The translations under genes were made by a program, and so were the position numbers. This document shows, piece after piece, positions 26,308-51,789 of a DNA stretch of 64,000 nt (the stretch's first letter is position 1; each line of letters opens with the position of its first letter). Source of the stretch: Thalassobius vesicularis (GTDB lineage Bacteria > Pseudomonadota > Alphaproteobacteria > Rhodobacterales > Rhodobacteraceae); contig NZ_SSMD01000001.1 of NCBI RefSeq assembly GCF_004799325.1, positions 372,001 through 436,000 of the forward strand, read 5' to 3'. The notes beneath the pieces were generated by a model that was given only the letters and a program-made list of their open reading frames with translations, was not told the origin of the DNA and ran no database searches.

Positions 26308-26320
26308 CGTCAGCGGGACA

Positions 26321-26361
26321 CCTCTCCCCAACGAGAGGCGCTTATCTGGAAGGGTAGCTAC

Positions 26362-26364
<3 letters not shown>
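26321..26364 (+). ncRNA. serC leader-like RNA element
   Basis: A CCTCTC / GAGAGG hairpin (loop CCCAAC, 26321-26338) is directly followed by GC-T-TATC...GGGTAGC, which can form a second bulged stem enclosing the GGAAGG ribosome binding site, ending at the serC ATG. Two small stems immediately before serC of a serC-serA operon is the architecture of the serC leader motif described in alphaproteobacteria (an Rfam family). The assignment rests on position and architecture, not on an alignment. Confidence 0.6.
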
Positions 26365-50434: not shown

Positions 50435-51070
50435 ATGAACCGCACCCATATTCCTGGCATTCTTGCCATGGCTGCCATCGTTGTGGCCGCCAATATCCTC
50501 GTCCAATTCCTGTTCGGCCAATGGCTGACCTGGGGGGCGTTTACCTATCCCTTCACTTTCCTGGTCACCGACGTGATGAACCGCGTCTATGGCGCAGGCC
50601 CCGCGCGCAAGGTCGTCGTGGCCGGTTTCGTCGTGGGCGTCATCTGCTCGCTGATCGGCACGCAGATCATGCTTGAGGGCGACGGCTACACCTATCCGGC
50701 CGTCACGCTGCGTATCGCCATCGGCTCGGGCCTGGCGTTCCTTGTGGCGCAACTTGTTGATATCTCTGTGTTTAACAGCCTGCGCAACGGCAGCTGGTGG
50801 CGCGCGCCGCTGGCCTCGACGCTGGTGGGCAGCTCGCTGGACACGGCGATCTTCTTCAGCATCGCGTTTTCGGCGGCCCTGACCGGGCTGGAACCGATGA
50901 ACGATGTCAGCTGGGCGAACGAAGCCCTGCCGCTGATCGGCGTCGGCCCCGTGGTGCCGCTGTGGGTCTCGCTGGGCTTTGCCGACTGGCTGGTGAAGCT
51001 GTCGCTTGCTTTGGTGGCACTTGTGCCGTTCCGCATCATCGTGGGGGCACTTACTACCCGCACCACATGA
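50435..51070 (+). CDS. Queuosine precursor transporter (YhhQ/VUT family)
   Basis: A 211-residue membrane protein with about six helices. Conserved family features are WGAFTYPFTFLVTDVMNRVYG, VVAGFVVGVICSLIGTQIM, IAIGSGLAFLVAQLVDISVFNSLR, and WWRAPLASTLVGSSLDTAIFFSIAF. E. coli YhhQ (QueP) imports preQ0/preQ1, so this organism can probably scavenge queuosine precursors. Monocistronic; a TTGACA-type promoter begins 8 bases after its stop. Confidence 0.92.
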   Translation: MNRTHIPGILAMAAIVVAANILVQFLFGQWLTWGAFTYPFTFLVTDVMNRVYGAGPARKVVVAGFVVGVICSLIGTQIMLEGDGYTYPAVTLRIAIGSGLAFLVAQLVDISVFNSLRNGSWWRAPLASTLVGSSLDTAIFFSIAFSAALTGLEPMNDVSWANEALPLIGVGPVVPLWVSLGFADWLVKLSLALVALVPFRIIVGALTTRTT

Positions 51071-51077
51071 TTTTGTT

Positions 51078-51110
51078 TTGACATTGAGCATTTCTGTGCC
51101 ACGCTACCAG
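51078..51110 (+). promoter_or_regulatory. Promoter of the candidate small RNA
   Basis: A consensus TTGACA (51078-51083) starts just after the transporter stop. The -10 is less clear; ACGCTA at 51101-51106 has the right 17-base spacing. Confidence 0.5.
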
Positions 51111-51140
51111 TGTGAACAACATTCGAAAGGAGGTGCTCTA

Positions 51141-51194
51141 GTGTCTAACGGGATCGCGGAGAATGGTGTTGGGACAGCGTGGAGGATACGCTAA
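51141..51194 (+). CDS. 17-codon ORF inside the candidate small RNA
   Basis: GTG start seven bases after AAAGGAGG, encoding VSNGIAENGVGTAWRIR then TAA. The SD spacing is ideal, but the SD is predicted to be masked by the downstream CACCTCCTT. It may be a regulatory leader peptide rather than a functional protein. Confidence 0.4.
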   Translation: MSNGIAENGVGTAWRIR

Positions 51195-51265
51195 CGGGGC
51201 AACCCTCGGGTGCGTAAATCCAAGTTGGTGACCATCTAACCAGGGCCACCTCCTTCAATCTCTGG

Positions 51266-51298
51266 GGGCCGCACCGCAAGGGCGGCCCTCTTGCTTTG
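51266..51298 (+). terminator. Terminator of the candidate small RNA
   Basis: GGGCCGC, loop ACCGCAAGG, GCGGCCC, followed by TCTTGCTTT. Confidence 0.65.
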
Positions 51299-51366: not shown

Positions 51367-51789
51367 ATGCTGCGCATCACCGACACGATCACCATTCACG
51401 ACTGGGAGCTGACCGAGCAGTTCATGCGCGCCTCGGGCCCCGGCGGGCAGAACGTGAACAAGGTGTCCTCGGCGGTGGAACTGCGGTTCGAGGCAGAGCG
51501 CAGCCCCTCGCTGACGCCGCCGGTCAAGGCGCGGCTGAAACGGCTGGCCGGTCGGCGCTGGACAAAGGACGGCGCGATCGTGCTGCAATGCGACGAGACC
51601 CGCAGCCAGACCCGCAACCGCGAGATCGTGCGCCAACGCCTGGCCGAACTGATCGAACAGGCCACCCACGCGCCCAAGCGGCGCATCCCCACCAAACCGA
51701 CCAAAGCCAGCCAACGCCGCCGGATCGAGGCCAAGAAACAACGCGGAGAGGTCAAGGCCCTGCGCACCCGCCCCGGCCAGCCAGAATGA
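51367..51789 (+). CDS. arfB: Alternative ribosome-rescue factor ArfB (YaeJ)
   Basis: A 140-residue peptidyl-tRNA hydrolase that releases stalled ribosomes. It has the catalytic GGQ in RASGPGGQNVNKVSSAVELRF and a basic C-terminal tail (PKRRIPTKPTKASQRRRIEAKKQRGEVKALR) that inserts in the empty mRNA channel. Length is typical. No strong Shine-Dalgarno is visible, so the ATG at 51367 is chosen from family similarity. It is preceded by the candidate small RNA, which is suggestive given that both concern ribosome function. Confidence 0.95.
   Translation: MLRITDTITIHDWELTEQFMRASGPGGQNVNKVSSAVELRFEAERSPSLTPPVKARLKRLAGRRWTKDGAIVLQCDETRSQTRNREIVRQRLAELIEQATHAPKRRIPTKPTKASQRRRIEAKKQRGEVKALRTRPGQPE

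Follow-up and report, generated by a model that had tools for sequence, protein, structure and literature searches.

Two forward-strand genes, one at 50435-51070 that we take, by its sequence, to be YhhQ-like and one at 51367-51789 that was named ArfB-like in the original prediction, flank a short region of the window (the whole 64,000-nt stretch of DNA analysed here), and all elements described below lie on the same strand. The putative promoter has TTGACA as its -35 element (51078-51083), in which TTGAC is nearly constant in a 31-row alignment, and CACGCT (51100-51105) is -10-like in our reading. The RNA would extend approximately from 51113 to 51297, its start being deduced from the promoter and its end from the terminator (51265-51297), which consists of a stem at about 51265-51289, a helix that covaries in relatives, and a T-rich tail. 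Near the 5' end lies an extended Shine-Dalgarno (SD) sequence (51125-51139), the complement of the 16S rRNA tail with two mismatches, and the SD core of the window copy, AAGGAGGTG, occupies 51127-51135. The ORF that follows (51141-51194) starts with GTG at 51141, has 17 codons (18 in most relatives) and ends with TAA at 51192-51194. Helix P1 would join GGAGGUG (51129-51135), within the extended SD, to the anti-SD CACCUCC (51247-51253), part of the anti-SD site CACCTCCTT (51247-51255). Helix P1b would pair UCU (51137-51139) with GGA at codons 6-7 (51158-51160), leaving the start codon in the loop. P2, a covarying helix, has its 5' arm inside the ORF (51175-51183) and its 3' arm, as used in the helix counts, at 51219-51227. 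GGAGGAT, predicted as a hairpin-loop element, is at 51181-51187, and a small hairpin read by eye, GGG GCAA CCC, stands directly past the stop codon (51196-51205). When the sequence was re-read, the predicted elements were all found in place.

The promoter had been described as free-standing and as bracketing, together with the terminator, about 190 bases. Both elements are conserved in relatives; however, simple consensus scans of the locus found no promoter and did not list the terminator at 51265-51297, so the two calls rest on that conservation. A part of the promoter spacer, CTGTG.CA, is also conserved in the 31-row alignment. In many relatives the spacer (51084-51105), which has CTGTG.CA here, carries the dyad ACACA-AAATC-TGTGT, and it may be the site of a regulator. 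The claim of a discrete small RNA is supported by the 31-row alignment, the SD-opening folds, the helix counts and the ORF tests, and on this comparative sequence evidence the segment of about 51113-51297 is a genuine small RNA gene that stands on its own.

In most clades the 5' element, GAAAGGAGGUGAUCC, is exactly complementary to the 16S rRNA tail, whereas the window copy has two mismatches; GAAAGGAGGTGATCC is the exact complement of GGATCACCTCCTTTC. In a pattern search of the own genome, the exact 16S tail occurs at one place only, on contig C17, which was taken as the 16S gene from its sequence alone. Sites with two mismatches are the site of this RNA and five others, and the backward control gives one. 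CACCTCCTT occurs at two sites in the window, one on each strand, and these are exactly the SD and the anti-SD sites; 0.30 sites were expected, and two sites were reached by 3 of 100 shuffles. The prediction that 51247-51255 is complementary to the SD and matches the 16S tail was confirmed. In Caulobacter, 75.4% of coding genes are reported, in the accessible text of PMC4117421, to have no SD, so that an SD spanning the whole tail stands out more. Pairing with the tail is predicted to yield -22.5 kcal/mol for the window copy and -29.9 kcal/mol for the class form, against -10.2 kcal/mol for a 6-nt SD, and the predicted cost of opening the SD in the window copy is 9.7 kcal/mol. A complement of this length and strength would suit an RNA that mainly occupies the 16S tail and lowers translation as a trap or decoy of 30S subunits. 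Such a trap, however, would need no conserved stop codon, and the SD is hidden in Rhodobacteraceae, so we regard this explanation as improbable.

The RNA had been presented as new. A relative is already in Rfam as CC2171 (RF01867), and the Rfam model matched the window copy over its full length with 27.6 bits (E 2.6e-4); the novelty stands to the extent that this score is below the model's cut-off of 75 bits. Blastn with a 241-base query detected relatives in 34 genomes out of 101, most of them from the genus and the family, and the RF01867 model found matches in 26 of 142 genomes sampled from the class, five of them above the cut-off. The exact core pattern is present in 48 of 289 genomes of the class, at a single place in each. 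In a sample of 150 genomes from the phylum it was found in 17, all of them among the 38 that belong to the class, and in none of the 112 outside it. A looser pattern detected 123 of 149 genomes of the family, with two places in four of them, but its backward control matches in two genomes and it includes chance matches such as L236. A scan of named genomes gave at least 119 stretches with the core. Among the matches listed, 116 of 119 have an ORF of 14-31 codons; of the other three, two run off the end of their stretch and the third has 59 codons. By NCBI order, 116 tabulated matches belong to Hyphomicrobiales (37), Sphingomonadales (27), Rhodobacterales (25), Rhodospirillales (5), Acetobacterales (4), Caulobacterales (3) and Hyphomonadales (1), the rest being 11 without order or class within Pseudomonadota, two labelled Gemmatimonadota and one without rank. 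The two Gemmatimonadota-labelled entries among the matches listed (L067 and L095) are MAGs that have the core and a tiny ORF, and misbinning and transfer are both possible. Copy number per genome is usually one. Because the 5' end, the start, the copy number and the terminator are common to all clades, we infer that their copies derive from one ancestral RNA, and by these pattern and model searches an RNA gene of this kind is widespread in alphaproteobacteria. The searches of Rfam families also gave weak matches to suhB/mmgR and BjrC68 over the 3' part, which were set aside, and a serC leader RNA (RF00517) at 26311-26362 on the forward strand of the window (70.9 bits, above the cut-off).

The original prediction drew attention to the adjacent arfB gene. 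Of 74 Rhodobacteraceae-type copies, 71 have a YhhQ relative no more than 1 kb upstream and 53 have an ArfB relative no more than 1 kb downstream; the 21 copies without an ArfB relative include three (L072, L153 and L157) whose available sequence is too short for a decision. Neither YhhQ nor ArfB relatives were found in 21 loci from other families, which extend about 1.5 kb to each side. Clusters of neighbor genes from different clades are nearly separate among the 32 largest clusters, L069 excepted; L069 is a Rhodobacteraceae-type copy with neighbors like those of the MSS-type clade. The frequent position upstream of arfB within the family would fit a leader or a leader-peptide attenuator of arfB, but the terminator stands between the RNA and arfB, and the synteny is incomplete within the family and absent elsewhere. 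The adjacency is therefore unsupported as a functional tie, a role as arfB leader is highly improbable, and we prefer to regard the RNA as a free-standing gene.

We then come to the ORF. The start codon is GTG, ATG or TTG at one common position. In loci derived from BLAST or the model, GTG was counted 32 times, ATG 13 times and TTG three times; six loci were uncalled, namely L033 and five from Rhodobacteraceae that had been read on the anti-SD strand, and no AGGAGGTG was found in L032, L054 and L059. A tally from the pattern searches would be biased because the patterns demand a start codon. The 74-row Rhodobacteraceae-type set was chosen by a peptide pattern with codons 2, 7, 11 and 12 fixed and the stop left free; among 30 family-pattern loci, L211, L212, L216 and L217 lack this pattern and lie outside the set, as do L218, L221, L236 and L237. 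Exactly 18 codons are found in 68 of the 74 copies. Codon 19 is TGA in 39, TAG in 20, TAA in nine and another codon in five, and one copy is cut. TGG, which is one step from TGA and from TAG, occurs in none of the 74, whereas 11.5 are expected if the two bases vary independently; the P value of this codon-19 test, 1e-10, ignores kinship and is hence inflated. Mapped onto a tree of the YhhQ neighbor protein with 69 rows, of which 64 had a scored stop, the stop type shows at least 19 changes. A stop within codons 2-18 is found in frame in 1 of 74 copies, namely the window copy, which stops one codon early, and in 41 and 48 of 74 in the other two frames. In sphingomonad-type copies codon 19 is TAA in 13 and TGA in 11, that is, a stop in 24 of 26. 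The tests of start, frame and stop agree and indicate that the predicted GTG ORF with its well-placed SD is real, and the accompanying statement that no real gene lies between promoter and terminator has to be given up, the small ORF itself being conserved. Although the relative CC2171 is entered in Rfam as an sRNA gene, these same tests make a non-coding sRNA with an incidental SD and ORF extremely improbable.

The peptide behaves differently from the frame. In 52 rows, pN/pS is 0.91 in frame, no lower than the 0.80 and 0.77 out of frame, so a selected peptide is unsupported overall. The in-frame value is lower, 0.57, at codons 8-11. Peptides are wholly different between clades, and the conserved residues fall on RNA helices. 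Because the stop and frame tests hold yet pN/pS is 0.91, the comparisons indicate conservation of the reading frame but, for the most part, not of the peptide; selection seems to have kept translation itself rather than the peptide, although codons 8-11 may leave room for some peptide selection. The alternative is that the RNA is a small mRNA encoding a functional micropeptide (14-31 residues) and that its structure only adjusts translation. The maintained ORF with its clade-constant length and the low value at codons 8-11 agree with it, while the overall pN/pS, the divergence between clades and the coincidence of conserved residues with helices do not, and we consider it rather unlikely.

The window RNA has a fold z of -2.09, with 5 of 200 shuffles as stable or more, and its SD pairs with the anti-SD. 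In predicted folds this SD is unpaired at about 1%, compared with 33% when the downstream sequence is shuffled. Helices were counted in an alignment of 52 sequences, from which rows too similar or too short had been dropped; the strict anti-SD motif is missing at the expected place in nine of 73 first-pass rows, all nine of which are in the 52-row alignment. In P1, 98.1% of 364 cells are paired, with 38 one-sided pair-keeping changes, mostly G-U compatible, and seven misses. Since the SD side is invariant, there is no two-sided change in P1 and its support consists of one-sided changes only. P1b, UCCA 3' of the SD with UGGA at codons 6-7, is 97.1% paired. P2 is 86.5% paired with two-sided changes at six of nine pairs, and the terminator helix is 93.9% paired with two-sided changes at all six pairs. 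The covariation score was 0.327 versus 0.199 for shuffled alignments (0 of 500 shuffles as high), and it fell to 0.145 or less after sliding by 1-3 columns. The original prediction had staked itself on conservation of the SD/anti-SD pairing in homologous regions, and within Rhodobacteraceae the pairing is conserved, with the SD side invariant. It could give both the translated and the closed form that had been proposed. The element that competes with masking is more likely to be the invariant GGAG of codons 6-7, whose partner UCC lies immediately 3' of the SD, than the GGAGGAT at 51181.

The anti-SD arm is CACCTCC in 19 of the 52 rows, CATCTCC in 15 and CGCCTCC in 10, and the latter two still pair with the RNA's own SD. 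This bears on the second idea of the original prediction, that the RNA is a sponge that titrates the SDs of other mRNAs. CACCTCCTT does match the 16S tail, and an anti-SD sRNA is proposed for Bartonella in the accessible text of PMC7717549. On the other hand, the arm drifts to variants that keep the internal pairing, and it is paired within the RNA; titration is thus unsupported and very unlikely.

SD masking was compared across clades. Folds to test masking covered all but 4 of 172 sequences, and those for long-range pairing all but 31 of 217. The SD is unpaired at 0.089 in 57 Rhodobacteraceae-type sequences versus 0.32 with shuffled tails, and 56 of the 57 are below their shuffle mean. In 110 sequences outside Rhodobacteraceae, the value is 0.357 versus 0.329 for shuffles, and 52 of the 110 are below the shuffle mean. 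As the SD outside the family is no more paired than in shuffles, masking is a trait of Rhodobacteraceae; we rejected it as a class-wide principle, and the SD lock cannot be the class-wide function. By eye, clade alignments suggest that other clades have their own helices between the first codons and a segment before the terminator, such as CAUUGUC with GACAAUG (HCH-type), CAUGGUUCAGC with GCUGACCAUG, and GUGA with UCAC. A closing helix common to the class was also considered and was not retained; folding gave it moderate support, with five of six groups above shuffles on average and the Bradyrhizobium group below. In Bradyrhizobium-type copies (L110, L118, L131, L137, L141 and L163), the 14-codon ORF contains a complement of the SD, GUCACCUC, and a second helix, CUCGCUGG with CCAGCGAG, overlaps it; this looks like two exclusive folds.

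We give an even chance to the reading that this is a translated small RNA, either a small mRNA or a dual-function sRNA, that acts as a ribosome-operated RNA switch. The newly made RNA would fold shut and hide the SD and the start codon. The tail of a 30S subunit would then compete for the SD and open the closed RNA, because the predicted energy of tail pairing in the window copy outweighs the predicted cost of opening. Initiation at GTG and reading of 17-18 codons would open P1, P1b and P2 and free the 3' half, and the ribosome would stop just before the small hairpin and leave. Since 30S binding and translation would open the RNA, its closed and open states would follow the supply of ribosomes. 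The open state may differ in stability, hold 30S subunits or expose the freed 3' half. Selection on the peptide sequence is not visible, which makes the translation-driven change of RNA state the most likely useful output. A broader and rather doubtful extension is that the RNA is a class-wide gauge of free 30S subunits, whose input is the 16S tail, sensed through the 15-nt complement, and whose state would report or buffer the supply of these subunits. The disposable ORF would allow the ribosome to flip the RNA open and leave, and Rhodobacterales would have added a lock in which the SD is paired with a copy of the 16S anti-SD. It is unusual for a frame to be kept because it is translated and not because of what it encodes. 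The switch, if real, would offer a way into the question of how ribosome supply is sensed in alphaproteobacteria.

CC2171 reportedly came from a Caulobacter sRNA screen. It is typed as an sRNA in Rfam and shares with the window copy the 5' core CAAC...GAAAGGAGGUG...AGUGUCU with a start codon, a short ORF behind the core and a terminator at the 3' end. The CAUUGUC/GACAAUG helix of the RF01867 model, present in the HCH-type group as the closing helix, is absent from the window copy, which closes by SD/anti-SD pairing instead. A search with the 5' core sequence strings gave no literature match. In the accessible text on CC2171/RF01867, including Rfam 15 (PMC11701678) and PMC5596092, the ORF, the whole-tail SD and the SD lock are not described, nor is the ORF of the RNA described in the accessible main text of PMC10117765, PMC4117421, PMC5082802 and PMC7717549. 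The Mesorhizobium huakuii screen identified MH_s33 as RF01867, and according to the accessible text 34 of 35 non-riboswitch predictions had an RNA-seq product, MH_s6 being the only one without (PMC5596092); a transcript of a relative therefore probably exists in that species.

6S RNA resembles the present RNA in being structured with paired ends, but this identity was rejected because the sole RF00013 match in the own genome lies elsewhere, at C5:52847-53003. That 6S-like RNA (L002, minus strand) scores 39.4 bits, below the Rfam cut-off of 46.4. BbsR14 of Bartonella is likewise an alphaproteobacterial sRNA with an anti-SD motif; in the accessible text its motifs are in loops, with a proposed action in trans, whereas the motif here is paired with the RNA's own SD (PMC7717549). 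The rnTrpL of Sinorhizobium, a dual-function sRNA, is similar in combining a terminator with a tiny ORF that is translated there and probably translated here. As far as the accessible text of PMC10117765 goes, rnTrpL is leaderless, derived from an attenuator and encodes a functional peptide, whereas the RNA here is encoded by a gene of its own, its SD spans the whole tail and selection on its peptide is not visible. The window copy represents an SD-locked, probably translated branch of CC2171-like RNAs. What was catalogued as an sRNA gene of Caulobacter is thereby seen to have relatives across many orders of a major bacterial class and, by the evolutionary tests used here, to look translated.
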